From Cyclobacteriaceae bacterium (lineage in GTDB: Bacteria; Bacteroidota; Bacteroidia; Cytophagales; Cyclobacteriaceae), in assembly GCA_016787625.1 (NCBI GenBank), contig JAEUUD010000007.1:1-41202 (forward strand): DNA of 41,202 nucleotides. The letters run 5' to 3'. Made by a program: the position numbers and the translations under genes. Below are positions 7,443-28,848 of this stretch, piece after piece. The notes under the pieces are model-generated. The model was not told the origin of the DNA. It did not search any database and worked only from the letters and a program-made list of their open reading frames with translations. How positions within the stretch are numbered: position 1 is the first letter of the stretch; the number at the start of each line of letters is the position of its first letter.

Positions 7443-7871
7443 TTATTCACTCCTTGAAGGCACAATCACCAGGGGTACACGAATCTCATCGACCAGTTCT
7501 TCCAACGACTCTGCATTGCCGATCGCCATACTTCTTGCCATCACGAGCAATGAGACATTATTCTTGCGGGTATACTCCTGAATGCGGTCACGTATAAATC
7601 CAACCTCCGTACGGAAATCAAATGTTACTTGCTGATCTCCGAGGAGCTGCGCTGCCAATGCATCAAACTTTGCCAGGGCTTCATGCTCTATCGCCAACTT
7701 TGACTGCACAACGTTATCACGCCTTTTCAGTTGATCAAGGCGATACGGATACAAAATACTGATGTGCATATTTCGAGTGCGCGCTTCCAGTATTGCCCAT
7801 TGAAGAACTTGTACAGATGCTTCAGAAAAATCAATCAAGCACAATAGTGAAGGTGTTCCTGACACTGGCAT
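7443..7871 (-). CDS. Universal stress protein, single domain (UspA-like)
   Basis: Cytoplasmic Usp-fold protein (142 aa): N-terminal LLCLIDFSEASVQVLQWAI, a central FDFRTEVGFIRDRIQEY, and the closing strand RVPLVIVPS. The nucleotide loop that in ATP-binding Usps reads G-2x-G-9x-G-S/T is degraded here (MARSMAIGNAESLEEL), so ATP binding is doubtful. It is divergent from the sensor kinase gene. The intervening region contains a TACGTTTG -7 element for this gene (7891-7898) and a perfect FNR-type palindrome 52 bp upstream of it, arranged as for the usp-ccoI operon. This suggests induction at low oxygen. Its stop lies 8 bp from the convergent barrel gene. Confidence 0.85.
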   Translation of the reverse strand: MPVSGTPSLLCLIDFSEASVQVLQWAILEARTRNMHISILYPYRLDQLKRRDNVVQSKLAIEHEALAKFDALAAQLLGDQQVTFDFRTEVGFIRDRIQEYTRKNNVSLLVMARSMAIGNAESLEELVDEIRVPLVIVPSRSE

Positions 7872-7943: not shown

Positions 7944-7957
7944 ATGATTTAAATCAT
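7944..7957. promoter_or_regulatory. FNR/CRP-type operator (perfect palindrome)
   Basis: ATGATTTAAATCAT is a perfect 14-bp palindrome carrying the TGAT-N4-ATCA core of FNR boxes. It lies between the divergent uspA-like gene and the kinase-regulator operon. Its position relative to the usp -7 element fits activation, while it directly overlaps the kinase -7 element (TATTTTTG, 7957-7964), which fits repression. The protein bound is inferred to be the REC-CRP regulator encoded just downstream. Confidence 0.7.
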
Positions 7958-7964
7958 ATTTTTG
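7957..7964 (+). promoter_or_regulatory. -7 element of the kinase-regulator operon
   Basis: TATTTTTG matches TAnnTTTG exactly and overlaps the last base of the FNR-type palindrome. Transcription would begin only a few bases before the ATG at 7971, implying a leaderless or nearly leaderless mRNA and ruling out the in-frame TTG at 7962 as start. Confidence 0.45.
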
Positions 7965-7970
7965 CTGTCT

Positions 7971-9236
7971 ATGGATTCATCCAAGGTTCTATTTGGGAGG
8001 CCAGTGATCTCAGGAGATGCATTGAAAGAAATTTTTCAAAGCATGATGGAGGGCATTGTGGTGGTGGATAAGGCAGGCCAGATACTGGTGGTCAATCCGG
8101 TTGGAGAAAAAATGTTCGGCTACTCCACCGGGGAACTCCCGGGCATGCGTATGGAACAATTGCTTCCGGAACGGTACAGAACTCAGCACATCCTGTTCCG
8201 GGATTCCTTCCACAACAGTCCTGTTCCTCGCCGTATGGGACTTGGACGCGACCTGACAGCATTGAAGAAGGACGGCACCGAGTTCCCAGTAGAGATCAGT
8301 CTTAGCTATTCAACAGCCGGCGGTACATTCATTGCCATTGCGTTTATCAGTGACATTTCCTTAAGAAAAAAGGCGGAAGATGCTTTGAAGCAAAGTGAAG
8401 AGCAATTGATCGTGTATGCGTCTGAGCTGGAGAAAAAAGTGAAAAGCCGTACTGAAGATCTGAATGTCTCTATTCAAAACCTCGAGCGCGAGGTGACTGA
8501 ACGCAAGAAAGCCGAAGAGGAAGTTCGAAAGGCGCTTGAGAAAGAACGCGAACTCAATGATATGAAGTCCAAATTTGTGTCCATTGCATCTCATGAATTC
8601 AGGACCCCGCTTAGCACCATTCTCAGCTCTATTTCCCTGATTGACCAATATCGAAAGGCCGGCGAGCTGGATCGCATTGACAAGCACGTCAGCCGTGCCC
8701 GCATTTCTGTGAATCATCTGACAACGATTCTCAATGACTTCTTGTCCGTAGGACGCCTTGAGGAAGGCAAAGTGGATATTGTTACGGAGCAGGTTGCCAT
8801 TCTTGAGTTATTCAACGACATCGTTGAAGAAATCAAACTACAACTGAAACCGGGGCAGGAAATCGTTATCGCTTGCAACACGTCAGCTCCAACCATCAAG
8901 ACCGACCCCAGGATGCTCCGAAATGTTCTCTTCAACCTTCTTTCCAATGCCAGCAAGTATTCGGGGGACAACACCATCATCAACCTTGATGGTGTGCAGG
9001 ATTCCAGGCATTTTACCATCCATATAAAAGACAGGGGAATAGGCATTCCCAAAGAAGACCAGCTCCATGTGTTTGACCGGTTCTTCCGGGCAACCAATGC
9101 GATTAACATCCAGGGTACCGGCCTTGGGTTAAACATTGTTAAGCGCTACATTGATTTACTAAAAGGCTCCATCTCTTTCGCCAGTGAATATGGTAAAGGG
9201 AGTACCTTCACTATTCAATTACCTTTGGCAACATGA
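7971..9236 (+). CDS. Soluble PAS-domain sensor histidine kinase, FixL-like
   Basis: Cytoplasmic two-component sensor kinase (421 aa, no transmembrane segment). Domains: PAS about residues 15-132, a heptad-rich helix about 135-200, dimerisation/HisKA with phospho-acceptor His208 in ASHEFRTPLST, and an HATPase with N box (NLLSNASKYS), G1 (DRGIGIPKED), F box and G2 (GTGLGLNI). In the PAS domain His73 (in RYRTQHILF) and Arg93 (in MGLGRDL) are 20 residues apart, as are the haem-ligating His and oxygen-sensing Arg of Bradyrhizobium FixL; this makes a haem oxygen sensor possible, but many non-haem PAS domains share this pattern. The stop overlaps the next gene's ATG (ATGA at 9233), so the regulator is its cognate partner. 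Confidence 0.88.
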   Translation: MDSSKVLFGRPVISGDALKEIFQSMMEGIVVVDKAGQILVVNPVGEKMFGYSTGELPGMRMEQLLPERYRTQHILFRDSFHNSPVPRRMGLGRDLTALKKDGTEFPVEISLSYSTAGGTFIAIAFISDISLRKKAEDALKQSEEQLIVYASELEKKVKSRTEDLNVSIQNLEREVTERKKAEEEVRKALEKERELNDMKSKFVSIASHEFRTPLSTILSSISLIDQYRKAGELDRIDKHVSRARISVNHLTTILNDFLSVGRLEEGKVDIVTEQVAILELFNDIVEEIKLQLKPGQEIVIACNTSAPTIKTDPRMLRNVLFNLLSNASKYSGDNTIINLDGVQDSRHFTIHIKDRGIGIPKEDQLHVFDRFFRATNAINIQGTGLGLNIVKRYIDLLKGSISFASEYGKGSTFTIQLPLAT

Positions 9237-10294
9237 AGAAAATCCTTCTCATAGAAGATAATACCGAGATCAGGGAAAACACGGGTGAGATTCTTGAATT
9301 GGCAGGGTACAATGTCATTTCCGCTGAGAACGGAAAGGCGGGTGTTCAAATGACCCAGGAACAACTTCCGGATCTGATTGTATGCGACATCATGATGCCG
9401 GAACTTGATGGATACGGTGTCCTACACATCCTGAGTCAGCGTGAAGAAACAGCCAGAATCCCATTCATCTTTCTCACCGCGAAGACAGAGAAGGCCGACA
9501 TACGAAAGGGTATGGAATTAGGGGCCGATGACTACCTGACCAAACCCTTCAGCGAAACCGAGCTCCTCAATGCTGTTGACGTACGGCTAAAGAAACATGC
9601 ACTAAGGGTTGATGAATACCATAGCACTCCTGAAGGTTTAGAAACATTTATCCGGGATGCACAAAAAGTGCTTAACCTCAAGGATCTATGTAAAGACAAA
9701 AAGGTGAAGCAATTCAAGAAGAAGACCGAAATCTTCAGTGAAGGCGACGCACCACAGTATGTTTACTTTCTCAAATCAGGCGATGTCAAAATATTCAAGT
9801 CCCATCAGGATGGAAAGGAACTGATTACCAACTTATACAGGGAAAATGACTTTTTCGGCTTTGAACCCATCCTTGAAGGAAGTGACTATCACGATTCTGC
9901 CGTGGCCATGCAGGATGCTGAGGTCATCGTTATACCCAAGCATGATTTCCTCGCTCTGCTCTACAGCCACCATGATGTTGCATCAGGCTTTATTTCCCTG
10001 TTGTGCAAGAAAGTGGCAGAAAAGGAAAAACAGTTACTGAACCTGGCCTATAGTTCTGTGAGGCAAAGAACGGCAGAAGCGTTGCTTAAAGTCATCCAAT
10101 TGAAAGACAATAAAGACAAGATTCAAATCTCACGTGATGACCTTGCCAAAATTGTCGGCACAGCTTCCGAATCAGTTATCCGCGTTCTTTCCGATTTCAA
10201 GGATGAAGGCTTGATAGAAATTGAAGGTGGCAAGATCAGGGTATTACAGCCTACTAAACTAGAGAAAATCGTCAGGTGGAACGTCGCGAGGTAG
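9233..10294 (+). CDS. Response regulator: receiver fused to CRP/FNR DNA-binding module
   Basis: A 353-aa fusion. The N-terminal receiver (about 1-120) has the acidic pocket (Glu8/Asp9), phospho-acceptor Asp52 in VCDIMMPELDG, Thr82 and Lys104 (LTKPF). After a linker comes a cyclic-nucleotide-binding-type beta barrel (about 160-270) and a C-terminal Crp helix-turn-helix (about 285-345). The recognition helix TASESVIRVLSDF keeps Glu313 and Arg317, the residues that read TGA half-sites in FNR and CRP. No N-terminal Cys cluster is present, so it is not itself an Fe-S oxygen sensor; phosphorylation by the coupled kinase presumably replaces that. It is the likely activator of the surrounding cbb3 and nos genes. 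The stop codon abuts the convergent SafE-like gene's stop at 10295. Confidence 0.9.
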   Translation: MKKILLIEDNTEIRENTGEILELAGYNVISAENGKAGVQMTQEQLPDLIVCDIMMPELDGYGVLHILSQREETARIPFIFLTAKTEKADIRKGMELGADDYLTKPFSETELLNAVDVRLKKHALRVDEYHSTPEGLETFIRDAQKVLNLKDLCKDKKVKQFKKKTEIFSEGDAPQYVYFLKSGDVKIFKSHQDGKELITNLYRENDFFGFEPILEGSDYHDSAVAMQDAEVIVIPKHDFLALLYSHHDVASGFISLLCKKVAEKEKQLLNLAYSSVRQRTAEALLKVIQLKDNKDKIQISRDDLAKIVGTASESVIRVLSDFKDEGLIEIEGGKIRVLQPTKLEKIVRWNVAR

Positions 10295-10981
10295 TTAAGG
10301 GCAAACTACTTCCGTATTGACAGTCTCTCTGGGTCTGAGGTCTCGGTAATCCAGGGAGGTAGACCTTACGATCAGGAGCAATCCCATAACAATCAAGAAC
10401 ATCGTATTGAATTGCTGTATGCGATACCCCCCTTGGCGCAAGACCGGTGCAAGCAATGATACCAAGCCAAGCATGGCAGGGAGCGTACCTGCCCCAAACA
10501 GCATCATGAACAAGAATCCATCAACAGCACCAGGCAATAATGCACAATAGGCAAGGGCAAGGAAGGTGAGCCCGCATGGCAGCAACCCATTAATACAGCC
10601 CAAAAGGGCCATCGAAGAAAATGAACCGCCTTTCAGTTGTCGCGAAAACACTTTCTTAACCCATAAACTAAAGTGATGTAACAGAGAGCTGATGAAGGGA
10701 ATCCTGAATTGCCCTGCGCCGGTAATCCCGATAATAATGAGAAAACCACCGAGTACGATGGAAAGGGTATTCTGTATTTCAGTCAAACCTGCCAACCTAC
10801 CAAATGCGCCTGCAAGCGCGCCTAAAACGGCATATGTAAGTATTCGCCCGGAATTATATACGACCCTATTAACAAACGCAGCCTTTGTCACTGACGAAAC
10901 AGCCATCGCCAGAGGGCTGCACATACCTACGCAATGCAAACTGCCCACAAAACCAATCATGAAAGCCGTTACAATCATCAC
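10295..10981 (-). CDS. DsbD_2/SafE-like membrane protein of the cbb3 operon
   Basis: Six-helix inner-membrane protein (228 aa) of the COG2836 type, usually labelled sulfite exporter TauE/SafE but related to the DsbD_2 membrane domain. The N-terminal helix carries HCVGMCSPLA and the fourth helix GLLPCGLTF, paired Cys residues consistent with thiol or copper handling. As the last gene of ccoNO-P-G-H (its ATG overlaps ccoH by 4 bp), it most likely assists copper delivery or cytochrome maturation for the oxidase rather than sulfite export. That role is inferred from context. Confidence 0.85.
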   Translation of the reverse strand: MMIVTAFMIGFVGSLHCVGMCSPLAMAVSSVTKAAFVNRVVYNSGRILTYAVLGALAGAFGRLAGLTEIQNTLSIVLGGFLIIIGITGAGQFRIPFISSLLHHFSLWVKKVFSRQLKGGSFSSMALLGCINGLLPCGLTFLALAYCALLPGAVDGFLFMMLFGAGTLPAMLGLVSLLAPVLRQGGYRIQQFNTMFLIVMGLLLIVRSTSLDYRDLRPRETVNTEVVCP

Positions 10982-11406
10982 AAGTAGATAACCTGTTCAA
11001 GGTAATACGGCTTTCCGTCCATGGACCAACGCATCTTTGCCCTGTACATGCCTGACGCCATATTACTTACGTTCATTCTTATGCGGCCTCCTTCTGCAGG
11101 AGTCAGAACAAAAGTCCGATCCATGGATTTACTCGAGGGTCTGAACAACTCAAGCCTCGCCTCTGATATGTCTGATAGCCTAACAAAGCGTATTTCAACC
11201 TCAGTGCCAATGACCCCGATAATAGGCTTCTCCGGTAAAGCGCTCGTGTTCCTCATCCTGTCAATCTGTTCCTGAAACATCAGTTCTTGCTGATAATAGT
11301 CCTCGGCTACAAGTGGTATATCCTGTCGAATGCAAACAACGACAAGCACGCCGATAAACACAGCAAACAAAACAAACGCAAGGGCAATTGATTTTCCCCA
11401 GTTCAT
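10978..11406 (-). CDS. ccoH: FixH/CcoH family cbb3 assembly protein
   Basis: Single-pass inner-membrane protein (142 aa): one N-terminal helix (SIALAFVLFAVFIGVLVVV), then the conserved LVAEDYYQQEL motif and a periplasmic beta domain. FixH/CcoH proteins bind the nascent cbb3 oxidase and are needed for its assembly. The ends overlap ccoG upstream and the SafE-like gene downstream by 4 bp each, giving translational coupling inside the cco operon. Confidence 0.88.
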   Translation of the reverse strand: MNWGKSIALAFVLFAVFIGVLVVVCIRQDIPLVAEDYYQQELMFQEQIDRMRNTSALPEKPIIGVIGTEVEIRFVRLSDISEARLELFRPSSKSMDRTFVLTPAEGGRIRMNVSNMASGMYRAKMRWSMDGKPYYLEQVIYL

Positions 11407-12860
11407 TGACTTGATTTTACTGGCCCAATAAACTTTACACGTACTTCTTCAAGGAGCTCAAGATCTCTGTACACGCCAAGGGTCACTTCTGTCTTTGAAT
11501 GCTCGATTTGGTCAGCATGAATCCTGATAAAACACATACGTTTTGCCAGCCCACCTGCCTGAAGGACAATCCGATCGCCTTCAGGCATGAAAAGCGAGAT
11601 GCCTTCCGGGCTGAGAGGTTTCAATTGCAGCGACATCTCATCAAATGTCTTGTTGACAAATTCTATGGTGTAGAGGTTTGATACAAATCCATCATCTGCC
11701 TTTTGAAACAAAGTGCCAGGCACCTTCAACATCGTGGTTTCAACTTCCGACCGTGTAAACAGTGTAAACCCCAGAAGGCCAAGAAGTATACAGAGAACAA
11801 CAGAGTAACCCGCCACCCTGGCTGTCAACAATCGCTGAACTCCATTCTGTATCGAAGCATGAGACGCATACCTGATGAGTCCGGCAGGTTTGTCTATTTT
11901 CAACATCACCTCATCACACGCATCCATACACGCTGTACAGTTGACACATTCCAATTGGGTCCCGTTCCGAATGTCGATACCCGTAGGGCAAACATGCACG
12001 CACAATTTGCAGTCAATGCAATCACCAACTTTTGGCGGATTCATCACTCCTTTCTTGCGTTTCCCCCGTGGTTCACCCCGGAGCCAGTCGTAGGCCACGA
12101 CAATAGAATCCTTGATCAGCAGAACACCCTGCAATCGACCATAAGGACACACAACAACGCATGCTTGCTCGCGGAAATACGCAAATACACTATAAAATAT
12201 CCCCGTAAATACAATCATTGCCGTGAATCCAGTGACGTGATTAGCCGGAGAATTCATGATAATAGCCAACGCCGCATCTTTTCCGATGACGTAGGCCATA
12301 GCGATGTGGGCAATAAGGATGGAAAGGGTAAGAAAAATTGCCTGTTTGACGATTTTCTTTACAACGATGGCGATAGTGAATGGTGCTGAATCATTCCGTC
12401 GCTGTTCGTTGGCATCTCCTTCAATCCAATATTCGATCTTTCTGAACACCATCTCCATGAACAAGGTTTGAGGGCACATCCAGCCGCACCAAAGGCGGCC
12501 AAACACTACGGTAAATAGGATAACAAAAACAAAAAAGGTGATCAGTACCAGCGCGAGCAGCACGAAATCCTGCGGCCAAAAAATCTGACCAAAGACGACA
12601 AATTTCCTTTCAAATACATTCAGCAGAAGTAGCGGGTTGTCATCAATTGTTACAAAAGGGCCAATGAAGAAAAGGGAAAGGAGAAAAATGGTAACAACGA
12701 CCCTCTTACGGTGATAAGAACCTGACGGCTTCTTCGGATAAACCCAAATGCGCTTACCCTTCTCATCAACCGTACCCATGGAGTTACGGAACTCTTCATC
12801 GTACTGGTAGAATTCACCAGCATTCGCTGAAGCATCCCGCATCGCTCCGTCCTGACTCAT
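11403..12860 (-). CDS. ccoG: CcoG/RdxA/FixG polyferredoxin, cbb3 maturation
   Basis: Membrane polyferredoxin (485 aa) that reduces Cu(II) to Cu(I) for CuB insertion in the oxidase. Visible: the N-terminal half with four or five transmembrane helices and CGWMCPQTLFMEMVFRKIEYWIEG (NapH-like CxxxCP), CVVVCPYGRLQG, then two 4Fe-4S motifs (CIDCKLCVHVCPTGID and CVNCTACMDACDEVM), a further helix near residue 345, and a C-terminal IgG-like periplasmic domain. It sits between ccoP (4-bp overlap) and ccoH (4-bp overlap). Confidence 0.95.
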   Translation of the reverse strand: MSQDGAMRDASANAGEFYQYDEEFRNSMGTVDEKGKRIWVYPKKPSGSYHRKRVVVTIFLLSLFFIGPFVTIDDNPLLLLNVFERKFVVFGQIFWPQDFVLLALVLITFFVFVILFTVVFGRLWCGWMCPQTLFMEMVFRKIEYWIEGDANEQRRNDSAPFTIAIVVKKIVKQAIFLTLSILIAHIAMAYVIGKDAALAIIMNSPANHVTGFTAMIVFTGIFYSVFAYFREQACVVVCPYGRLQGVLLIKDSIVVAYDWLRGEPRGKRKKGVMNPPKVGDCIDCKLCVHVCPTGIDIRNGTQLECVNCTACMDACDEVMLKIDKPAGLIRYASHASIQNGVQRLLTARVAGYSVVLCILLGLLGFTLFTRSEVETTMLKVPGTLFQKADDGFVSNLYTIEFVNKTFDEMSLQLKPLSPEGISLFMPEGDRIVLQAGGLAKRMCFIRIHADQIEHSKTEVTLGVYRDLELLEEVRVKFIGPVKSSQ

Positions 12861-13966
12861 CGGTCGCCCACACGTTTGATGCTATCGGCAGTTTCTTCAA
12901 CAGGAGGTACATACTCTTTTCCCTGAGGTGCTTTTGCACCGTCAGGGTTTGAACCCTGCAGGCTCATGACAAAGAATGTAACATCCCTGACATCGGAAGG
13001 GCTCATCACCTTTCCCCATGCGGGCATTCCTTTTTCCACGACACCGGATTTGATCGTTGTGAAAATGGTCCTTATATCACCGCCATGAATCCAGAACATG
13101 TCTGTCAGGTTTGGACCAATGGCATTTCCACCCCCATCATTGCGGTGACATGAACCGCAGTTATTGCTCATGAACACTTTCTTCCCGTTGGTGATAAATG
13201 CTTCCTCTTTGGTGTAGGTTAAAGTATTTTCGTCAATGACAGTAACGGGTTGTGAGGCCCGGTATGCGCGAAGCTGCTCCGCAGCCAGCGCAACATCATT
13301 TTCATACTCTGCCCCTGAAAGCGGCATGGAACCCATGAAGTGATAGATGGCCATGTAAATGACAGCCCATACCATAGAACCATAGAAAAGCCCTTTCCAC
13401 CAAGGCGGAAGATGATTGTCCAACTCTCGGATTCCATCAAATTCATGACCTAGATCGATGTCCTTTTCCTGCTCAAGGGGAACGGAAGCATTGAATTGAT
13501 CCCAAAACTTTGTCCACCATGAAACGCTGGGAACATAGGTCATTCCCAACTTCTCAGCACGTTCCTTTTCCGCCTGATGAACAAACATGTTCAGTACCTT
13601 CAGCATGTAAACGGCGACCACCATGACCAACACGAGTGTTACAAATACAAGCGTTGTTGTAACATACAGCGGCATCATAGGATTATTGAATGGGTCGATC
13701 CAGAATGATTGATCGGATGTCTCCTGAGCCATCAGCTCGGAGCCCGGCATCAGAAATAGAAAAAGTACCAATACCTTACGCCATGGCCAACCACCTGTTG
13801 GTTCCGACTCATCCTCAAAAGGAAGGCCTTTCATTTTCTGTATGTATGTTTTATCGGCACTGAAAACCCACCACAAAAGGCAAATGAAGAAAATAAAGAA
13901 AATGGAAAATGAAATGATCGGCCAAACAGCTATGTGATCAATGCCTTGAAGAATGTCTTTGTACAT
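12857..13966 (-). CDS. ccoP: cbb3 oxidase subunit CcoP, mono-haem form
   Basis: Cytochrome c subunit of cbb3 oxidase (369 aa) feeding electrons to CcoO/CcoN. It has four hydrophobic helices (about 13-37, 64-75, 98-122 and 190-214), the last preceded by the PPWWKGLFYGS motif diagnostic of CcoP. One haem c site only is present, CGSCH at 270-274, with Met314 (KGMPAWG) as the likely axial ligand; proteobacterial CcoP has two. The N-terminal helix followed by a polar segment resembles a fused CcoQ/FixQ, so no separate ccoQ is expected and none is visible. It is 7 bp downstream of ccoNO. Confidence 0.92.
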   Translation of the reverse strand: MYKDILQGIDHIAVWPIISFSIFFIFFICLLWWVFSADKTYIQKMKGLPFEDESEPTGGWPWRKVLVLFLFLMPGSELMAQETSDQSFWIDPFNNPMMPLYVTTTLVFVTLVLVMVVAVYMLKVLNMFVHQAEKERAEKLGMTYVPSVSWWTKFWDQFNASVPLEQEKDIDLGHEFDGIRELDNHLPPWWKGLFYGSMVWAVIYMAIYHFMGSMPLSGAEYENDVALAAEQLRAYRASQPVTVIDENTLTYTKEEAFITNGKKVFMSNNCGSCHRNDGGGNAIGPNLTDMFWIHGGDIRTIFTTIKSGVVEKGMPAWGKVMSPSDVRDVTFFVMSLQGSNPDGAKAPQGKEYVPPVEETADSIKRVGDR

Positions 13967-13973
13967 AAGTGTT

Positions 13974-16100
13974 TTACTTTTCTGCTACTTTTTCTGCTTT
14001 TATGTCTTTACCAAGACGCTGGAGATAGGCGATCAGGGCAATGATTTCTGACTCAGGAATTACTTCTATACCTTCCATACCTAGATTCTCTGTCATGTTT
14101 TTGGCTTGCTTCATCAGGTCTTCATTTGCCTGGCCCTCATATCCATCAGGGTACGGAACACCAACCTTTCGTAGTGCCGAAATCTTGCCAGCCGTCTCAT
14201 CCAGGTCGATGGTTTGCTCAAACAACCATGGGTATGGCGGCATGATCGATCCGGTTGAAACAGCATCAGGCGCCAACATATGATTGTAATGCCACGAATC
14301 AGAATACTTGCCGCTGGTTCGGTGAAGGTCAGGGCCAGTTCGCTTTGAACCCCACAAGAATGGATGATCATACACAAACTCTCCTGCCTTTGAATACTCT
14401 CCGTATCGCTCTGTCTCCGATCGAAAGGGCCTAACCATTTGAGTATGACAATTCACACATCCTTCCCTGATGAAGATGTCACGGCCATGCAGTTCCAGAG
14501 GTGTGTAGGGTGTGACGGCTGCTATCGTCGGAACGTTTGATCTTATCAAAAAGGTGGGGACGATCTCAACGATGCCGCCGATAAGTATCGCCACGAATGT
14601 TAATACTGTAAACAAAACTGGTTTGCTTTCCATCACCTGATGGTGCCAACCACCTGAAGCGACTTTGGGAACTACAGCCAATGGCGAAGCTTCTGCCGGC
14701 TCATTGGCAATGAACTTTCCGGCATTCGCGGTCTTTATCAGGTTGTAGGTCATAATAATGGCACCTGTGAGATACAGGGCGCCGCCGACAGCCCTCAGCA
14801 TATACAGAGGAATGATTTGAATGGTCGTCTCAAGAAAATTCTTGTAGACAAGGAATCCTTCAGGGTTAAATTCCTTCCACATCAAACTCTGTACAACACC
14901 TGCCACATACATTGGAAGTGCATAAAAAATAATTCCAAGTGTGCCCAGCCAGAAGTGTACATTGGCCAACCTGGTCGAGTATAGATTGGTTGCCCACATC
15001 CTGGGTACCACCCAATAAAGGATACCAAAAATCAGGAACCCGTTCCACCCCAGTCCGCCAACGTGAACATGGGCAACAATCCAATCAGTAAAATGCGTGA
15101 TGGCATTAATGTTCTTCAGGGAAAGCAACGGGCCTTCCAGTGTTGCCATGCCGTATGCGGTGACTGCTACGACCATAAACTTGAGCACCGGATTTTCTCT
15201 AACGCGGTCCCAGGCGCCGCGCAGGGTCATGAGGCCGTTCAACATCCCACCCCAAGAAGGAGCTATGAGCATAATTGAAAATACGGTACCCAGTGATTGG
15301 GCCCAGTCTGGCAGCGCTGTATAAAGCAAGTGATGTGGGCCAGCCCAGATGTAAATAAAAATCAAAGACCAAAAGTGAACGATCGACAGGCGGTATGAAT
15401 ACACCGGTCTGTTCGCCGCCTTGGGCAGGAAGTAATACATAAGACCGAGGAACGGCGTGGTAAGAAAAAATGCTACGGCGTTGTGGCCATACCACCATTG
15501 CACGAGAGCATCCTGAACACCTGCATAGAAAGAGTAGCTCTTCATCCAGGTAACAGGCACCGCAAAGGAGTTGACTACATGGAGGACAGCCACCGTCACA
15601 AATGTTGCGATGTAAAACCAAATGGCGACGTACATATGCCGCTCCCTCCTCCTCAGGATGGTTCCGATCATGTTCCAGCCGAAGACCACCCAAATCAAGG
15701 TTATGGCAATGTCGATCGGCCACTCCAACTCCGCATACTCTTTCGAGGTGGTAAATCCCAGCGGTAAAGTGATAGCGGCAGCGACGATGATCGATTGCCA
15801 ACCCCAAAAGTGTATCCAGCTCAACCCATCACTGAACATCCGGGTCTTCAGCAGACGCTGCATGGAGTAGTAAACGCCGGCGAACATGGCATTGCCGACG
15901 AATGCAAAGATGATGGCGTTGGTATGAAGTGGTCTTATCCTCCCGAAGGTGGTGTAAGGCAAGTCAAAATTGACAATAGGGTAAAAGAGTTGAATGGCCG
16001 CCGTGAGACCCACAAGCATGCCCACCAATCCAAAAATGACGGTCGCTATGATAAATGCCTTGACAATTTTATTGTCATAACTGAACTTGTCCAACTCCAT
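13974..16100 (-). CDS. ccoNO: Fused cbb3 cytochrome oxidase subunits CcoN-CcoO
   Basis: Catalytic and mono-haem cytochrome subunits in one 708-aa chain. Residues 1 to about 480 are CcoN: haem ligand His59 (RPLHTNAII), CuB site WWYGHNAV, GPHHLLY, and HVHVGGLGWNG. After a linker, a transmembrane anchor (about 505-525) leads to the CcoO domain with CVNCH at 548-552, the conserved QMVRPFRSE and axial Met620 (SIMPPYPW). The start MELDKFSYDNKIVKAF at 16100 is where CcoN similarity begins; upstream in-frame codons reach 16157 but overlap the promoter region. The CcoN-CcoO fusion is a known Bacteroidota arrangement. First gene of the cco operon. Confidence 0.95.
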   Translation of the reverse strand: MELDKFSYDNKIVKAFIIATVIFGLVGMLVGLTAAIQLFYPIVNFDLPYTTFGRIRPLHTNAIIFAFVGNAMFAGVYYSMQRLLKTRMFSDGLSWIHFWGWQSIIVAAAITLPLGFTTSKEYAELEWPIDIAITLIWVVFGWNMIGTILRRRERHMYVAIWFYIATFVTVAVLHVVNSFAVPVTWMKSYSFYAGVQDALVQWWYGHNAVAFFLTTPFLGLMYYFLPKAANRPVYSYRLSIVHFWSLIFIYIWAGPHHLLYTALPDWAQSLGTVFSIMLIAPSWGGMLNGLMTLRGAWDRVRENPVLKFMVVAVTAYGMATLEGPLLSLKNINAITHFTDWIVAHVHVGGLGWNGFLIFGILYWVVPRMWATNLYSTRLANVHFWLGTLGIIFYALPMYVAGVVQSLMWKEFNPEGFLVYKNFLETTIQIIPLYMLRAVGGALYLTGAIIMTYNLIKTANAGKFIANEPAEASPLAVVPKVASGGWHHQVMESKPVLFTVLTFVAILIGGIVEIVPTFLIRSNVPTIAAVTPYTPLELHGRDIFIREGCVNCHTQMVRPFRSETERYGEYSKAGEFVYDHPFLWGSKRTGPDLHRTSGKYSDSWHYNHMLAPDAVSTGSIMPPYPWLFEQTIDLDETAGKISALRKVGVPYPDGYEGQANEDLMKQAKNMTENLGMEGIEVIPESEIIALIAYLQRLGKDIKAEKVAEK

Positions 16101-16130
16101 GAGCGCTGCTGTTAAGGTTTTTGCTTGCCT

Positions 16131-16168
16131 CAAAAGTATGCGCACATAAAAAATCAAAATATGATTTT
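16131..16168 (-). promoter_or_regulatory. Candidate ccoNO promoter region with AT-rich dyad
   Basis: Minus-strand TACTTTTG (16131-16138) matches TAnnTTTG, 31 bp before the ccoNO start. Just upstream is an inverted repeat AAAATCA-AAATA-TGATTTT (16150-16168) with half-sites pointing the opposite way from an FNR box. An alternative, one-base-short -7 element (TATTTTG) lies inside this dyad, 49.5 bp from the centre of the FNR-type box at 16204-16217. Which is used cannot be decided from sequence. Confidence 0.4.
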
Positions 16169-16203: not shown

Positions 16204-16217
16204 CTGATGAATGTCAT
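16204..16217. promoter_or_regulatory. FNR/DNR-type box between ccoNO and the DUF2892 gene
   Basis: CTGATGAATGTCAT carries TGAT-N4-GTCA. Its centre is 29.5 bp upstream of TACCTCTG (16240-16247), a near match to TAnnTTTG for the plus-strand DUF2892 gene; this is the same distance as for the nosZ and fasciclin boxes. It is also 110 bp upstream of the ccoNO start codon on the other strand and could serve both. Confidence 0.6.
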
Positions 16218-16519: not shown

Positions 16520-16873
16520 TCAGGCGTTCAACCCCATACGGTGCTGAAAAAGCGACGCAATCGCCTTTGCTCTCTCAATGGCTTCGCTGGCCTTAGGGCC
16601 TTCGAAATGCTGATTGACTGTCTGGCTAAAAAGCTTTAGCCAGCGTCTAAAGTGCCGTGCCGTGATAGGGAGAGAAACATGCTTTTGATAAGGGTTGCCG
16701 CGATAGGACTGCTCAGCCAGCAATAGCGAAGCCCAGAAGGAATACATTGTCGGCATATGAGCTGGCCAGTCAACATGGGCGAACACCGGGCTCAGTAAGT
16801 CATCGGCAATGACTTTATCATAAAAAGTGTCAACAAGAAAAACAATGTCTTCCCTCCGTGTGATATCGCTCAT
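16520..16873 (-). CDS. Group III truncated haemoglobin
   Basis: Cytoplasmic 2-on-2 globin (117 aa) of group III: the helix B segment VDTFYDKVIADDLLSPVF with distal Tyr18, Trp47 in YSFWASLLL, and proximal His74 in ITARHFRRWLKLF. Group III globins are poorly understood; those studied are linked to nitric oxide or low-oxygen physiology. It lies 17 bp after the fasciclin gene, probably cotranscribed, with an FNR-type box upstream of the pair, which fits a role in NO or oxygen handling beside N2O respiration. Confidence 0.9.
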   Translation of the reverse strand: MSDITRREDIVFLVDTFYDKVIADDLLSPVFAHVDWPAHMPTMYSFWASLLLAEQSYRGNPYQKHVSLPITARHFRRWLKLFSQTVNQHFEGPKASEAIERAKAIASLFQHRMGLNA

Positions 16874-16890
16874 GCAAATCAGGTTAGCCT

Positions 16891-17448
16891 TTACTTCGAT
16901 GGTGGCAGCAGCACAGCATCGACAATGTAAATGACACCATTGGATGCTGGTACAGTGGCCACAATATTAGCTCCATTGACAGTATACTTTCCATCTGCCA
17001 CCCCGATCACGATGTCGTCCAGATTCACCTGATTGATCTTTTGCCCGTCTCTGAGGTTCTCAAGCTTGTATACGCCTACGGCAACATGGTATTCCAGGAT
17101 GTTGCGCAGTGCATCCTTCGACTCTTTTTTAAGCAGTCCCTCAACGGTCCCCGCTGGCAGTTTATCAAATGCTGCATTGGTTGGCGCAAAGACCGTAAAT
17201 GGCCCCGCATTGGTCAGCACATCAACATACTCCGCAGCCTTTAACGCAGTGACCAACGTGGTATGATCGGCCGATCCCACTGCCACGCGAACAATATCCT
17301 TTTGAGAGTCATCATCCTTTACTGTGGACTGACCTCCGCCAGTTGGTTGCGCAACCGCAGTGTCCAAAGTTTGATTGCTTCCTGATGAACAAGCGACAAG
17401 TGTGATTGCTGCAACGAGAACAACAACAGCATGGTTTAGGTTTTTCAT
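16891..17448 (-). CDS. Fasciclin (FAS1) domain lipoprotein
   Basis: Exported lipoprotein (185 aa). A signal ending LVACSSG is followed by a low-complexity linker (about 22-50) and one FAS1 domain with H1 and H2 motifs: GPFTVFAPTNAAFDKLP and NILEYHVAVGVYKL, ending VPASNGVIYIVDAVLLPP. FAS1 domains mediate adhesion or carbohydrate binding, but the reason for location beside a globin and nos genes is unclear. An FNR-type box and a near-consensus -7 element lie in front. The stop is 17 bp from the globin start. Confidence 0.9.
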   Translation of the reverse strand: MKNLNHAVVVLVAAITLVACSSGSNQTLDTAVAQPTGGGQSTVKDDDSQKDIVRVAVGSADHTTLVTALKAAEYVDVLTNAGPFTVFAPTNAAFDKLPAGTVEGLLKKESKDALRNILEYHVAVGVYKLENLRDGQKINQVNLDDIVIGVADGKYTVNGANIVATVPASNGVIYIVDAVLLPPSK

Positions 17449-17482
17449 ATACTATACATTTTTTTGATGTCAATTGGATAGA

Positions 17483-17490
17483 CGAAACTA
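17483..17490 (-). promoter_or_regulatory. -7 element of the fasciclin-globin unit
   Basis: Minus-strand TAGTTTCG, one mismatch to TAnnTTTG, about 35 bp before the start codon. It is 29.5 bp from the centre of the FNR-type box at 17513-17526. Confidence 0.45.
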
Positions 17491-17512
17491 AGTGACTGGC
17501 GGCTTAGGCAAC

Positions 17513-17526
17513 CTGATGAACATCAT
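17513..17526. promoter_or_regulatory. FNR-type box upstream of the fasciclin-globin unit
   Basis: CTGATGAACATCAT carries TGAT-N4-ATCA. It lies between the end of nosY and the fasciclin gene, and its centre would be near -40 from the predicted transcription start, the class II activator position. Confidence 0.65.
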
Positions 17527-17545
17527 ACACATCAACCTACTTTCT

Positions 17546-18313
17546 TCATATGTCCTTGCTGAGAAATTTTCGTAAGGAATAAATTAGCGGCAATACAATC
17601 CATAGGACGAGCATGGAGGCAGAAAAAACTGTACCCAAACTTGTCCCAAAGAAGCTCTTGTAGAAAGCGCCTGTGTATCCCATCAATGCCGAGATATCAA
17701 GCTTGAGAAGTATGACAATCCTGGCAAGGTCAACAGGATTGAACGACACCAAAGCAAGGGTCACTTTCTCCATGGGGTAGTCGCTAAATGAATAAATGAT
17801 GTACAACATGAATCCATCGTAAATAAGACCAAAGTAGAACCAAAAGAGCAGTGCAATACCGATCCCTCTGGCCTTATCACGTGTAGATACAGAAGCTGCA
17901 AATGCAAGCGAAACAAAAACCCATGTAAGCAATAGTCCGGCAAAAACAAGGTAAAGGGAGCCCCAATCAGGGCTAAGCATGAATATTGGTACTCCAACAC
18001 CCAATAAGTACGCTACTGATAAAGTAAACGAAGCAGCAATGTATTCACTGAAGAAAATAACTTTCCGGTCAATCGGTTGTGAGAGCAGCAACTCAATGAA
18101 CTCGTAAGAATTGAAGAAGTAGATCGTTGTAAAAATGATACTAACAAGTGGCACAACCATAAGGATGATGTTCATCAAACTCAGCACGGCCTTACCCGGG
18201 TCACTATCAAGACTGAACAAACTGAGGGTGATTACCATAAGAAACAGGGCATATAGAATGACGAACCTGTTTCTCAGGATATCATAAAGGACATGTTTGG
18301 TAATCCTGATCAT
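17546..18313 (-). CDS. nosY: NosY, ABC transporter permease for NosZ copper-site assembly
   Basis: Inner-membrane permease (255 aa) with six predicted helices, e.g. FVILYALFLMVITLSLFSL and IGIALLFWFYFGLIYDGF, and the motif DKARGIGIAL typical of NosY. It pairs with NosF and NosD to support copper-cluster assembly of nitrous oxide reductase. The ATG overlaps the nosF stop by 4 bp. It is the last gene of the nos operon. Confidence 0.92.
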   Translation of the reverse strand: MIRITKHVLYDILRNRFVILYALFLMVITLSLFSLDSDPGKAVLSLMNIILMVVPLVSIIFTTIYFFNSYEFIELLLSQPIDRKVIFFSEYIAASFTLSVAYLLGVGVPIFMLSPDWGSLYLVFAGLLLTWVFVSLAFAASVSTRDKARGIGIALLFWFYFGLIYDGFMLYIIYSFSDYPMEKVTLALVSFNPVDLARIVILLKLDISALMGYTGAFYKSFFGTSLGTVFSASMLVLWIVLPLIYSLRKFLSKDI

Positions 18314-19032
18314 GGAGAAGGTCTTTTGAAATCTCTGCGCATCATTTCTGCAATGGCCTGACCGAGCTTCTCCCGACCTGCTTCAACCTTAATGGCTGGT
18401 ATTGATGCAGCGTAGCGAACGGCACCCTCCTGTAGATAAACAATCTCTGACGTCAGTTCATCAAGGTCGCTCATCATGTGCGAGGTAATGAGGAAGATCT
18501 TTCCCCTGGACTTTTCCTTGAGTATTTTGGCTTTGAGAACTTCAGCAGCCAGGGGATCAAGCCCAGCCGTTGGCTCGTCAAGGATCATGATCTTGGGGTC
18601 AAACAGAAAGGCAATGGCTGCGCTTACTTTCTGACGGGTTCCGCCCGAAAGGGTGTGCATCCTCTTATCAAACAACGCTTTCAACCCAAGGTCAGCGACA
18701 AGTTCTTCATCCGTTTCCGATCTGGTATGCCGAAGGTCACGAATCATATCAAGCACATGTCCGATCCGCATATTATCAGGATACCGGCCGATCTGGGGCA
18801 TATATCCAATCTGTTCACGGTAAGCCCATTGGCCTTTGATCACCTGCCCGGAAACCTCAATACTGCCTTTGTCGGGAAGCACCATTCCAAGTATACTCTT
18901 GATGAGTGTGGTCTTTCCTGATCCGTTTGGCCCAACAATAGCGTATGAGTTGCCATCCGTGAAAGATGCCGAGATCATTCTCAACACCTCCAGGTTTCCA
19001 AAACGTTTACAAACATCCCTAATCTCGATCAT
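18310..19032 (-). CDS. nosF: NosF, ABC transporter ATPase
   Basis: ATPase (240 aa) with Walker A GPNGSGKTT, Q loop GYMPQIGRYP, signature LSGGTRQK, Walker B IMILDEPTAGLDP and H-loop ITSHMMSDL. The C-terminal region is that of NosF, which energises NosD-NosY. The start MIEIRDVCKRFG at 19032 overlaps the nosD 3-prime end by 14 bp, longer than the other junctions in the operon. Confidence 0.94.
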   Translation of the reverse strand: MIEIRDVCKRFGNLEVLRMISASFTDGNSYAIVGPNGSGKTTLIKSILGMVLPDKGSIEVSGQVIKGQWAYREQIGYMPQIGRYPDNMRIGHVLDMIRDLRHTRSETDEELVADLGLKALFDKRMHTLSGGTRQKVSAAIAFLFDPKIMILDEPTAGLDPLAAEVLKAKILKEKSRGKIFLITSHMMSDLDELTSEIVYLQEGAVRYAASIPAIKVEAGREKLGQAIAEMMRRDFKRPSP

Positions 19033-20290
19033 AGGCTTTCATAGCAGGAAAATCGTCCTTGAGGTTGGCAGGTGTGACTGCCGGGACAACCTTTTCAGCA
19101 CGATCGATGAGGAATACAAGGAAACTGCGCCAAAGCATGACAGCAGTAGGCATTTTCTCGACAATCATACCATAGAGACTTACCGGGTGAAAGGGAACAT
19201 CACCATGCCCGTCGCGGTTAAGGTCATACCCATCATACTTGTCCCAGTAGTTCGATGTAATGGTATTGAGTGAAATCGATCCGTTGGTGGAAATATCAAA
19301 AGTGTTCCTCACAAAATTGTTTCTTTTCAGAAGGTTGCCATCACAGCTTGCCTGTACCTTCATGGCCCATCCGTTCTCGCGGAACTCGTTGTCCTGGATG
19401 ATCATCCGGCTGGATCCCTCCATATAAATAGCCACAGTGTTTCCTTCAAACCTACATTGTTCTATGCGGCTGTCGCCAATATCCTTTAACAGCAACGCAT
19501 ATGAGGCAGCTCCCTTGCTGTCAAGGAAACGATTACCTGTCATCTTCACATTCCTGGTATACATGACCGCCACGCCAGAACCGTTGCCGGTGAATATATT
19601 GTAGAGATAGTCATCATCGTGAGAAAACATAAAGTGGAGTCCATACCTAAGATTGCGTCGGCTGATATTCTCAACGACACGGGACTTGGTGACAAACTCA
19701 AAGTAAATACCATCGCGGTGTCCTTCGATGGTGTTCTTGCTTATGGTAACCCGATTACACTTCCAAAGGTGAATACCGTTGCCAGACTGGACTCCTGCTG
19801 TGTCTTTTACTGTTGATGTCAGTGTATTTCCACGGATAATGCAATCCGAGGAGTTTGAAAGATGAATGCCAAAGAAAGCATCGACGAATTGATTGTCAAG
19901 GATGCTCAACCCTACAGCATCCAGACCTTTGATTGCGGCAATGTCGTGAATGCTCGCCCGTCCGGTGTTGACCAACTTCAAACCCTGAATCGTAACTCCA
20001 GAGGCTGCAACGGTAAAAATCTCATACTTACCTTCTCCATCGATCACCGGCAGATGCTCGCCGATAATGGTGATCATTTTCTGAACAATCAGGTTGCCTT
20101 CCTTGTACGTACCGGGTTCGACGAGAATGCTGTCGCCGGGATCGGCCATTTCAATCGCTGCCCTGAGAGAACGAACCTTCTCTTCCAACCCGACACGAAT
20201 TGACCTTGCAGAAGCTGAAATCGGATAGAATAAAGCACAAAAAATTACTCCATTGGCAATGAACCGGGAAGTGAAGTTGAAATCCGTCAT
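19019..20290 (-). CDS. nosD: NosD, periplasmic copper-processing protein
   Basis: Exported right-handed beta-helix protein (423 aa). A signal peptide (about 1-28, ending ASA) precedes repeated carbohydrate-binding/PbH1 turns such as IRGNTLTSTV, ISKNTIEGHRDGIYFEF, VENISRRNLRYGLHFMFSHD and MTGNRFLDSKG, ending in NYWDKYDGYDLNRDGHGDVPFHP, which is diagnostic for NosD. It shuttles copper from NosL to NosZ in the periplasm. It overlaps nosL by 4 bp. Confidence 0.95.
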   Translation of the reverse strand: MTDFNFTSRFIANGVIFCALFYPISASARSIRVGLEEKVRSLRAAIEMADPGDSILVEPGTYKEGNLIVQKMITIIGEHLPVIDGEGKYEIFTVAASGVTIQGLKLVNTGRASIHDIAAIKGLDAVGLSILDNQFVDAFFGIHLSNSSDCIIRGNTLTSTVKDTAGVQSGNGIHLWKCNRVTISKNTIEGHRDGIYFEFVTKSRVVENISRRNLRYGLHFMFSHDDDYLYNIFTGNGSGVAVMYTRNVKMTGNRFLDSKGAASYALLLKDIGDSRIEQCRFEGNTVAIYMEGSSRMIIQDNEFRENGWAMKVQASCDGNLLKRNNFVRNTFDISTNGSISLNTITSNYWDKYDGYDLNRDGHGDVPFHPVSLYGMIVEKMPTAVMLWRSFLVFLIDRAEKVVPAVTPANLKDDFPAMKAYDRD

Positions 20291-20745
20291 TTGAATTGAG
20301 TGGCGACTTCACCCCATGCCATGAAGATTCCGCCGTTGGCTCTTTTGTAGGCCATAGCACGCTCGTATGATTCAAACGCGGCGATCTGGCTGGCCATGGG
20401 ACTTCTTATGGATTCTGCCTTTATATAGAAGGCCTCCTCAACGCCAAGCAGGCTTCCTTGCGTTTCAAAATCAACGGCCAGTCTGTGAACAAAGTCCCCT
20501 GGTTCTTCCCACCCTGAGTGGTAAAATCCCAGCATGCAATTCATGTCATCAAACTTGTATACTTTTCCTTTTTTGGTAACCAGTTCTGCACCAAATCGTC
20601 GGTCTACCAAGGTCATTTTGCACGTATAACAAGCATCAATGCCAAATTCCAACGGTTCAGGTTCGGTGGAACAACCCGCTAGCCACCAGGATATCGCAAT
20701 CAGCAACAGAGAGGGAATACCTTTCATTCGAGTGATCATTCTCAT
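20287..20745 (-). CDS. nosL: NosL, copper chaperone lipoprotein
   Basis: Outer-periplasmic Cu(I) chaperone (152 aa from 20745). The lipoprotein signal ends LAGCST; a metal-binding CYTCKM follows, and DDMNCMLGF lies in the second half, all typical of NosL. The start is placed at 20745 because that ATG overlaps the upstream stop (ATGA) and gives a clean signal peptide; earlier in-frame codons would add 22 Arg/Cys-rich residues that lie inside the upstream gene. Confidence 0.9.
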   Translation of the reverse strand: MRMITRMKGIPSLLLIAISWWLAGCSTEPEPLEFGIDACYTCKMTLVDRRFGAELVTKKGKVYKFDDMNCMLGFYHSGWEEPGDFVHRLAVDFETQGSLLGVEEAFYIKAESIRSPMASQIAAFESYERAMAYKRANGGIFMAWGEVATQFK

Positions 20746-21323
20746 TTCCTTCTTCTCCACTCGTATAGAACAACAACAAAAATGATCAGGCCTACGCCTA
20801 TAAAAATCCATCCGCCCAGATCTGGCCCTGAGTACGCGGTAAAATTCAGGAGTACTTTGGTACCGATCAGCGGTGGTTGATAGGACATCCCCTCAACTTT
20901 AATCGCTGCTTCCGGGTTGAGGTTATGGCCATAATCGTAGCCCCACAGGTAGAAATCCACAAGTGCCGCTAAGGCTGTCATCACAAGTAAAAGGAAGTAT
21001 GCAGCCAGTCCTCTCCATTTTGCAACTAAAGCTGTAAGCAAACCGAGTGTGATTATGCTGCCCAGTATATAGATCATGTAGCCGAATTCAGGAAACATAC
21101 TGACTTCAATATGCCTCATGCCGATGTAGTGATTGAGGGCACTGATAATTTTCACATCGCCACTGAGTGTATTGATCCAGATTTTCATTTCCAATCCCTC
21201 AGGGTACTGTGGCGCCCACAGGAGAATCCGCCAAAGCGGAACATAGAACGCTGTGATCAGTGACAGTACGGAAACTGCTATGACAATCCTTGATATTAAG
21301 TTCAGAGGTTTCATGATGACCAT
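20742..21323 (-). CDS. NosB-like polytopic membrane protein
   Basis: Inner-membrane protein (193 aa) with four to five helices: residues about 8-32 (IVIAVSVLSLITAFYVPLW), 80-102, 108-128 and 168-188. Conserved-looking features are a Trp/Tyr-rich first loop (PEGLEMKIW), SGDVKIISALNHYIGM, and WGYDYGHNLNPEAAI. Its place directly after nosZ and before nosL corresponds to nosB of clade II nos clusters, whose role in N2O reduction is still poorly defined. Identity is based on position and topology rather than a strong motif. In-frame ATGs exist at 21323 and 21314; the former has the better A-rich leader. Confidence 0.65.
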   Translation of the reverse strand: MVIMKPLNLISRIVIAVSVLSLITAFYVPLWRILLWAPQYPEGLEMKIWINTLSGDVKIISALNHYIGMRHIEVSMFPEFGYMIYILGSIITLGLLTALVAKWRGLAAYFLLLVMTALAALVDFYLWGYDYGHNLNPEAAIKVEGMSYQPPLIGTKVLLNFTAYSGPDLGGWIFIGVGLIIFVVVLYEWRRRK

Positions 21324-21335
21324 TTGTTACTTAAT

Positions 21336-21369
21336 GGAGATGCTCCCGATTACACCGGGAGACATCTCC
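21336..21369 (-). promoter_or_regulatory. Strong hairpin downstream of nosZ
   Basis: GGAGATGCTCCCG pairs with CGGGAGACATCTCC, a 13-bp stem with one bulged base and a 7-nt loop, in the 87-bp gap between nosZ and the nosB-like gene. No U-run follows on the minus strand. It may stabilise the cytochrome c-nosZ part of the message or partly terminate it, lowering expression of the assembly genes. Confidence 0.55.
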
Positions 21370-21410
21370 GCCCGAATTTCACGGGTACCTGCAACTATGA
21401 ATGAAACAGG

Positions 21411-23396: not shown

Positions 23397-23438
23397 ACAA
23401 TCAAATTTTTAGGTTAAGAAATATGTCGTCGTTTTAGC

Positions 23439-23900
23439 TCATTTCTCTCCGTCGTTCTTTCTCATGAACTCAAGAATGTCCCTTGCATCGCCAATAGAAA
23501 CATTCTGGTTTGGCATCCGGGTGAGGCAGAGTTCCAGGAGCTTTTGCGCTTCAGCGTCATTGTCCAACATCACCTCCACATTGGTGATCATATTCATGAT
23601 CCACTCAGGTTTTCTGGACTTGGTTACACCTTTCCACCCCGGACCGACAATGCGCGTCTCATCAAGTTTGTGGCAGGCCGAACATTTCATTTCATAAATG
23701 GCAAGCCCCCGCGAAACCCGCTCCTGTTCTATGGGCGTTTTCAAGGTGACATTCTTCACAGCACCGATGCCTTTTGTCGGATCAGTGATTACAGCTTCAG
23801 GAGCAGACTTGGTCAGGTCTGGATACTCCTCCGTCGTTTTTGGCTTGTCGGGTGCGCACGATACGCTGAGCAACACGAGCAAGAAAATGAAGAGCTTCAT
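23439..23900 (-). CDS. Mono-haem cytochrome c lipoprotein, probable electron donor to NosZ
   Basis: Exported c-type cytochrome (153 aa): lipoprotein signal MKLFIFLLVLLSVSC, a 50-residue linker, then haem site CSACH near residue 73 with IVGPGWKGV after it and the axial Met in LTRMPNQNVS. As the first gene of the nos operon it most likely passes electrons from the quinol side to NosZ, comparable in position to NosC in other clade II clusters though not clearly homologous. An FNR-type box lies 126 bp upstream of the start. Confidence 0.88.
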   Translation of the reverse strand: MKLFIFLLVLLSVSCAPDKPKTTEEYPDLTKSAPEAVITDPTKGIGAVKNVTLKTPIEQERVSRGLAIYEMKCSACHKLDETRIVGPGWKGVTKSRKPEWIMNMITNVEVMLDNDAEAQKLLELCLTRMPNQNVSIGDARDILEFMRKNDGEK

Positions 23901-24019: not shown

Positions 24020-24033
24020 CTGATTTTTGTCAG
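24020..24033. promoter_or_regulatory. FNR/DNR-type box upstream of the nos operon
   Basis: CTGATTTTTGTCAG carries TGAT-N4-GTCA, matching the box before the usp-ccoI operon at 11 of 12 core positions. It would lie near -40 from the predicted start, a class II position. Confidence 0.7.
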
Positions 24034-24264: not shown

Positions 24265-24268
24265 ACGA

Positions 24269-25564: not shown

Positions 25565-25573
25565 ATTAAGAAA

Positions 25574-27946: not shown

Positions 27947-27951
27947 CCAGG

Positions 27952-28776: not shown

Positions 28777-28796
28777 CTGGTGGTTTTTTACTTTCC

Positions 28797-28804
28797 CAAA
28801 CTTA
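28797..28804 (-). promoter_or_regulatory. -7 element of the usp-ccoI operon
   Basis: Minus-strand TAAGTTTG, a perfect TAnnTTTG match 20 bp upstream of the start codon. It lies 51.5 bp from the centre of the FNR-type box at 28849-28862. Confidence 0.6.
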
Positions 28805-28848
28805 GCCCCATCATGGACCACAACGAGTGAGGTCAGTCAAGGAGGCAG

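Follow-up and report, generated by a model that had tools for sequence, protein, structure and literature searches.

In the FixL-FixJ-FixK chain, FixJ consists of a receiver joined to a helix-turn-helix (HTH) of the NarL/LuxR type. A comparable rhizobial chain runs from hFixL via FxkR to the induction of FixK; FixK and FnrN act on anaeroboxes in front of fixNOQP, and an FNR-type box, TTGAT-N4-ATCAA, lies upstream of this operon (PMC7888657). Here we describe a gene pair in a 41,202-nt stretch of DNA from a Cyclobacteriaceae bacterium (assembly GCA_016787625.1, contig JAEUUD010000007.1, positions 1 to 41,202; hereafter the window, meaning this whole stretch), in which a PAS-domain histidine kinase (HK) gene overlaps the gene for a response regulator whose receiver is fused to an FNR-like cyclic nucleotide monophosphate (cNMP)-binding barrel and a Crp-type HTH. 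We consider it rather likely that the pair forms a low-oxygen two-component switch in which a heme-PAS kinase phosphorylates the FNR-like fusion, and that the latter acts on TGAY-N4-RTCA boxes and activates promoters of cco, nos and universal stress protein (USP) genes as well as its own.

Like the FixL-FixJ-FixK and hFixL-FxkR-FixK chains, the locus combines a FixL-like PAS kinase, an FNR-type box and cbb3 oxidase targets. Unlike in these chains, receiver and FNR-type output are a single protein. The output also differs from that of FixJ, because the fusion ends in a Crp HTH (HTH_Crp_2) and its receiver scores as OmpR/PhoB-like; on these two grounds a literal fusion of FixJ with FixK is rejected. 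An earlier note, made from the window alone, had read the pair as a FixL-FixJ-FixK cascade compressed into two genes. The FixL-like PAS domain, the linkage to cco and nos genes and the box speak for this idea, whereas its literal FixJ-FixK part has to be given up in view of the OmpR/PhoB-type receiver and a recognition helix shared with FNR. To judge from this comparison, the pair would most likely work like the FixL-FixJ-FixK chain with one transcription step fewer.

With stand-alone FNR and FnrN the fusion has the fold, the recognition helix and the box in common, and FNR is found near ccoNO in many genomes without the fusion; unlike these proteins, the fusion lacks all four cysteines and possesses a receiver and a partner kinase. 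The pair belongs neither to the FixJ family nor to the iron-sulfur (Fe-S) FNR proteins. Its barrel and HTH are those of CRP, yet the Arg-Ser pocket of CRP has given way to His220-Asp221. The kinase PAS domain is a relative, in fold and sequence, of the heme-PAS domains of E. coli DosP and of FG214. DosP is not a histidine kinase with a receiver-FNR fusion as its partner, and FG214 is, by its title, a one-component transcription factor. An earlier description of a kinase paired with a receiver-FNR fusion was not found in the literature searched, a limited search that does not prove absence. CRP/FNR proteins of a wastewater community have been studied in a paper that does not contain the word 'receiver' (PMC8510549), and another paper, by its own statement, left DNA-binding response regulators out of consideration (PMC1183210).

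Results

The source assembly comprises 3.24 Mb in 502 contigs, is 84% complete and holds a single copy of the receiver-FNR fusion according to a genome search (coordinates of all features are given in Table 1). The HK open reading frame (ORF; 7962..9236, + strand) opens with TTG, and an in-frame ATG at 7971 yields a protein of 421 aa; either start is possible. Pfam matches of the kinase are PAS (4e-11), HisKA (2.8e-11) and HATPase_c (4.9e-26). In the fusion of 353 aa, Response_reg covers residues 4-115 (1.2e-29), cNMP_binding residues 159-243 (3.6e-22) and HTH_Crp_2 residues 278-346 (3.2e-15). The two genes share a 4-base overlap, ATGA, at 9233-9236. ORFs and Pfam matches confirm what the earlier note had described as a soluble PAS kinase overlapping by ATGA with a receiver-CRP/FNR-HTH regulator, 'soluble' being a reading of the sequence only.

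Comparison with PDB sequences returned 17 matches to the kinase PAS domain with FixL on top, and 14 of them are FixL, DosP/EcDos or FG214 heme PAS. A predicted structure of this domain (26-row alignment; mean predicted local distance difference test score, pLDDT, 86.7) led to the same proteins: the first 23 Foldseek matches are all heme-PAS chains (FixL, FG214, DosP/EcDos), and the first light-oxygen-voltage (LOV)-type PAS appears at rank 24. The position equivalent to FixL H200, which we take to be the proximal heme ligand, is occupied by His in the window kinase, in 66/70 PAS domains (72 kinases examined) and, in a larger set, in 118 of the 124 kinases that adjoin a fusion. The FixL-like character claimed earlier for the kinase PAS is therefore corroborated by sequence, by structure and by the conserved heme-ligand position, and the domain is likely to bind heme. 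Arg at the position of FixL R220, presumably on the distal side, is present in the window kinase and in just 38 of the 70 PAS domains.

The receiver residues D9, D52 and K104 are found in 81/81 fusions and T82 in 78, Ser taking its place in the other three; acidic pocket, phospho-Asp, Thr/Ser and Lys of a response regulator are thus all in place. The best NCBIfam scores of the receiver are of the OmpR/PhoB type (among the 25 of 111 families shown). Glu and Arg of the recognition helix (E313, R317) are likewise invariant in the 81 fusions, and the helix motif TA[ST]E[ST]xIR is common to the fusion and to the four-Cys FNR of Bacteroidota. When aligned with stand-alone FNR, the window protein lacks Cys in all four FNR cysteine columns. 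These cysteines are invariant in an 11-row alignment of stand-alone FNR (A1) and are all present in 27 of 30 fetched relatives, the remaining three having none or one. Three stand-alone FNR proteins tested scored best with NCBIfam Fnr, below its cut-off, and the four-Cys type presumably carries an Fe-S cluster. In the alignment with CRP, the Arg-Ser of the cyclic AMP (cAMP) pocket, which we assume to be R82-S83, faces His220-Asp221; across the 81 fusions residue 220 is variable and residue 221 acidic in 80. Control of the fusion by cAMP is rejected because of this replacement. Template-modelling (TM) scores of the whole fusion in Foldseek are low (about 0.26-0.30 of query) because solved CRP/FNR chains match just one part of it. 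A rapidly computed tree of 108 CRP-type portions (unrooted, without careful support values) places the 34 fusions on one side of a branch with a value of 99 in the Shimodaira-Hasegawa-like approximate likelihood ratio test (SH-aLRT); therefore, one event joining receiver and FNR is enough.

Conservation of the linkage was assessed in 392 genomes sampled evenly across the Bacteroidota (fusion, E <= 1e-60; ccoNO, E <= 1e-100). The fusion occurs in 59 of them and ccoNO in 256; ccoNO is present in 54/59 genomes with the fusion versus 202/333 without it (odds ratio 7.0, p 1.1e-6; like all our Fisher tests, this one treats genomes as independent). In 24 of the 59 genomes, including G214, G218 and the window genome, fusion and ccoNO are no more than 25 kb apart, compared with about 0.6 genomes expected by chance (50 kb in about 4.5 Mb). 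Among the other 35, cco is located elsewhere or on another contig in 30 and falls short of the threshold in five. Regions were fetched for 64 fusion copies, namely all phylum-draw matches apart from the copy in the window. In 57 of them the fusion has a neighbouring kinase gene on the same strand, and the stretches contain ccoNO in 20 cases, genes of the double-USP type in 21 and nosZ in three. The picture is similar in 80 named loci, the best 80 of at least 586 related stretches, some on short contigs, where a same-strand kinase lies within 300 nt of the fusion in 71 and where ccoNO is found in 30, ccoI in 30 and nosZ in eight. Closer to the window, 29/58 relatives, most from its genus, have a fusion match at E <= 1e-40. 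Linkage to cco and nos genes thus recurs across Bacteroidota in both samples, and the lack of conserved linkage, which the earlier note had named as the outcome that would speak against it, was not observed.

Gene order varies among the loci. In L097, L103, L117 and L174 kinase and regulator are split by the cco operon, with one at each end of it; the split kinases of the first three also keep the His at the H200 position. L169 and L171 have the cco-to-regulator order of the split loci and no kinase in the fetched stretch. The fusion genes of L059, L080 and L106, from records titled Bacteriovoracaceae, Deltaproteobacteria and Azovibrio, are 52-53% identical to that of the window and reflect perhaps misbinned contigs or transfer. 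In six genomes of family f25 (L153, L154, L156-L159) the fusion pair is near USP genes and not near cco, which suggests a different main regulon there; a four-Cys FNR is retained in four of these genomes (G190, G159, G174, G281), while the other two (G186, G289) are without a cco match.

A stronger pattern, absent from the earlier note, is the near-exclusion of the fusion and the stand-alone FNR. The latter was searched with alignment A1 (E <= 1e-30), and its cysteines were read in L292-L311; for the 24 cco-linked genomes every stand-alone match was read for cysteines. Only one of these 24 genomes has a four-Cys FNR (G222, 20 kb apart), as against 19/30 genomes with cco away from the fusion, 0/5 without cco and 23/23 examined fusion-negative genomes of the class. 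In the window genome, which is 84% complete, no stand-alone FNR was found at E <= 1e-30, and its one other Crp-like match is 23% identical. The window's genus tells a similar story: among 37 genomes (G000-G035 and G202) 19 have only the fusion, 13 only FNR, three both and two neither (Fisher 1.9e-5). FNR was called here by hidden Markov model score (E < 1e-80), with cysteines read just for G202; in G001 and G030, counted as fusion only, there is in addition a weaker match of the stand-alone Crp/Fnr kind (E about 1e-49), and the two genomes with neither are 77-78% complete. A tree of a single housekeeping protein covers 30 of the 37 genomes. Its best version implies 8 changes for the fusion and 6 for FNR; the well-supported branches require fewer, 4 and 5 for the fusion-only and FNR-only states.

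Stand-alone Crp/Fnr proteins of a second type were seen in families f22 and f23 (L383-L386, L389-L394, L397). They have an N-terminal C-x4-C-x2-C, in some with a further C after two residues, and are possible Fe-S or NO sensors.

The TGAT-N4-RTCA motif has 17 strand-matches in the window compared with 4.5 (sd 2.5) in shuffled sequence, and none of 100 shuffles reached 17. Five of 12 distinct TGAY-N4-RTCA sites are intergenic (4,352 of 41,202 bases; about 1.3 expected by area), and two of these five have a partner at 22 bp. A de novo count of every gapped 4-base dyad in the regions preceding putative targets placed TGAT-N4-ATCA, TGAC-N4-GTCA or shifted versions on top for HK, ccoNO, ccoI, double USP and the nos cytochrome c; box-type dyads were not top before ccoG, globin or the fusion gene. 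TGAY-N4-RTCA precedes ccoNO in 37/42 cases, ccoI in 23/33, the nos cytochrome c gene in 9/11, USP142-type genes in 8/8, double USP in 28/52 and HK in 58/125. It is rare at inner operon genes (ccoG 0/40, ccoP 1/38, nosZ 0/9) and precedes the fusion gene in 10/136 and globin in 2/12. Kinases adjoining a fusion have the box upstream in 57/119 cases versus 167/1001 other upstream regions of the same loci. Dyad and promoter counts together establish the TGAT-N4-RTCA type of box, named in the earlier note, as real and place it at the promoters of cco, nos, USP and HK genes.

Fusion-negative genomes with cco were hand-picked from those with a listed ccoNO position, 23 in the same class and 27 in other classes. 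The box precedes ccoNO in 21/23 of the former versus 2/27 of the latter, and in 25/30 genomes that have the fusion with cco elsewhere. Fusion-negative genomes of the class possess the four-Cys FNR as a stand-alone protein, in many cases encoded about 3 kb from ccoNO, and this protein is the obvious user of the box there. Boxes are often doubled. Of 62 exact pairs, 37 are spaced 22-23 bp, and 58 of 180 exact or one-mismatch pairs have a spacing of 22 bp, the mean being 1.1 per spacing over 13-120, peak included. Counting a box plus a partner with at most one mismatch at 21-23 bp, boxed cco promoters are doubled in 25/37 cases with ccoNO near the fusion, 5/8 with the fusion elsewhere and no FNR, 3/17 with the fusion elsewhere and FNR present, and 4/21 with FNR and no fusion. 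Broken down by family, in the three sets other than the loci with ccoNO near the fusion, a partner occurs in 0/32 boxed promoters of f25 (29 with FNR, 3 without) and in 12/14 of other families (7/9 with FNR, 5/5 without).

Discussion

We envisage that the kinase PAS probably holds a heme and that, by analogy with FixL, loss of O2 would free the kinase for phosphorylation of D52 in the fusion. Once phosphorylated, the fusion would probably bind TGAY-N4-RTCA as a dimer, often together with a second dimer on a box 22 bp away, and would activate its own promoter along with USP genes and the operons for cbb3 oxidase and nos. At the cco promoter it may thus do the job that a four-Cys FNR probably does in other Bacteroidota, and the best reading of the exchange is that heme-kinase input and phosphorylation took over the job of Fe-S FNR on common operators. 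A broader scenario, to which we give an even chance, is that Bacteroidota changed the input and not the output of their low-oxygen regulon: a cysteine-less member of the FNR family was joined to a receiver, perhaps once, signalling by the heme kinase displaced direct Fe-S sensing at unchanged and often doubled operators, and a single genus has switched between the two modes several times.

Several points weigh against this sequence-based model. Fusions without ccoNO within 25 kb are in the majority (35/59 genomes), and the box is not tied to the fusion alone because 21/23 fusion-negative genomes of the class keep it; boxes alone therefore do not identify the fusion as the protein that binds them. 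Box doubling was considered as a mark of fusion control and rejected since it follows lineage and not regulator. The box is also present in 167/1001 background upstream regions, although these neighbours are perhaps part of the regulon. On the side of the sensor, ligand chemistry may vary because the R220 equivalent is Arg in only 38/70 PAS domains, and a second similar PAS domain that could serve as a control for the His position was not found in the window genome at E <= 0.001. With respect to the exchange, five independent pairs on supported branches of the genus tree (none together, about three opposite) are not significant alone, the FNR gene of the genus is mostly far from cco or on another contig (G018 being an exception), and some drafts, the window genome among them, are incomplete. 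Moreover, Fe-S sensing is possible in 8/24 cco-linked genomes because they encode other Cys-rich stand-alone Crp/Fnr proteins (G155, G416, G147, G316, G425, G269, G144, G366), which in G144 and G366 fill three of the four FNR cysteine columns.

The same circuit might respond to another signal, with the PAS domain sensing NO, CO, redox or another cofactor and thereby reporting nitrogen oxides or the state of electron transport. The variable R220 equivalent and the presence of nosZ near some copies (8/80 named loci, 3/64 in the phylum draw) are compatible with such a sensor. However, the nearest solved relatives are mostly O2-sensing heme PAS domains, the cbb3 oxidase is a recurrent linked target and the fusion nearly excludes the FNR type, so that we regard a different signal as possible and clearly less probable than oxygen. 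Still less probable, in our view, is a role of the fusion as repressor or modulator, with another Crp/Fnr protein activating cco and nos from the same box. Such an arrangement would accommodate boxes in genomes without the fusion, the Cys-rich proteins of the eight genomes named above and the location of a window box just 20.5 bp before the HK ATG. Against it speak the window genome (84% complete), with no stand-alone FNR at E <= 1e-30 and a single other, distant Crp-like match, and the lack of a classic four-Cys FNR in 23/24 cco-linked genomes.

Finally, the two-component system could be an unrelated passenger of a mobile or clustered respiratory island, and the many fusions remote from ccoNO fit this notion. 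Yet the association survives differing gene orders, such as the split pairs that flank the cco operon, and boxes are found on cco, nos, USP and HK promoters; passive linkage is hence very improbable. The low-oxygen switch remains the reading that we favor. If it is correct, a sizeable share of Bacteroidota (fusion in 59/392), including carriers of nitrous oxide reductase, use a control of low-oxygen respiration that is undescribed in the literature searched. Close relatives, some possessing FNR and others the kinase-fusion pair, would then represent a natural experiment in which the sensor was replaced and the promoters were kept, and TGAY-N4-RTCA, often doubled at 22 bp, would be a specific box for predicting the regulons of N2O reductase and cbb3 oxidase.

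Genes and boxes of the window

The pair is located beside cco genes and near ccoI and nosZ, as previously noted: the cco operon adjoins it, nosZ and a CcoI-type ATPase gene follow farther on, and a CcoS-like small ORF within 24076-24351 (- strand) was recognized by eye only. The cbb3 operon is convergent to the HK-fusion pair and reads, from the pair outward, DsbD_2/CcoH-like, FixH, CcoG, CcoP and fused CcoNO.

Table 1. Features of the kinase-fusion locus and putative target promoters in the window.
Feature	Position	Strand	Remarks
USP gene	7443..7871	-	divergent from HK
Histidine kinase (HK), PAS-HisKA-HATPase	7971..9236	+	PAS FixL/DosP heme-PAS-like; His73 (from ATG 7971) at FixL H200 position
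Response regulator (fusion)	9233..10294	+	receiver (D9, D52, T82, K104), FNR-like cNMP barrel and Crp HTH; without FNR cysteines
Putative target operon ccoNO-ccoP-ccoG-fixH-ccoH-like (cbb3 oxidase and assembly)	10295..16157	-	ccoNO ATG probably 16100
Putative targets globin, fasciclin, nosY, nosF, nosD, nosL, unknown, nosZ, cytochrome c	16520..23900	-	
Putative targets USP, CcoI-type ATPase, acetyl-CoA hydrolase, CcoS-like ORF	24076..28821	-	
Box TGATTTAAATCA	7945..7956		between USP 7443-7871 (-) and HK; centre 79.5 bp before USP ATG, 20.5 bp before HK ATG
Box TGATGAATGTCA	16205..16216		110.5 bp before presumed ccoNO ATG 16100; one-mismatch partner 22 bp away
Box TGATGAACATCA	17514..17525		71.5 bp before fasciclin-globin pair; no partner box found
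Box TGATTTTTGTCA	24021..24032		126.5 bp before cytochrome c-nosZ...nosY; no partner box found
Box TGATTTTAGTCA	28850..28861		79.5 bp before presumed USP-ccoI ATG; one-mismatch partner 22 bp away

Divergent from ccoNO, a 74-aa ORF resembling small membrane proteins (16268-16492, + strand) has the box at 16205 in common with that operon, the box being 59.5 bp before the ORF. The globin-like and fasciclin-domain genes (16520-17448, - strand) are downstream of one box, and fasciclin genes are found beside nosZ in several relatives, too. The acetyl-CoA hydrolase/transferase gene (24269-25564, - strand) is situated between ccoI and the CcoS-like ORF.

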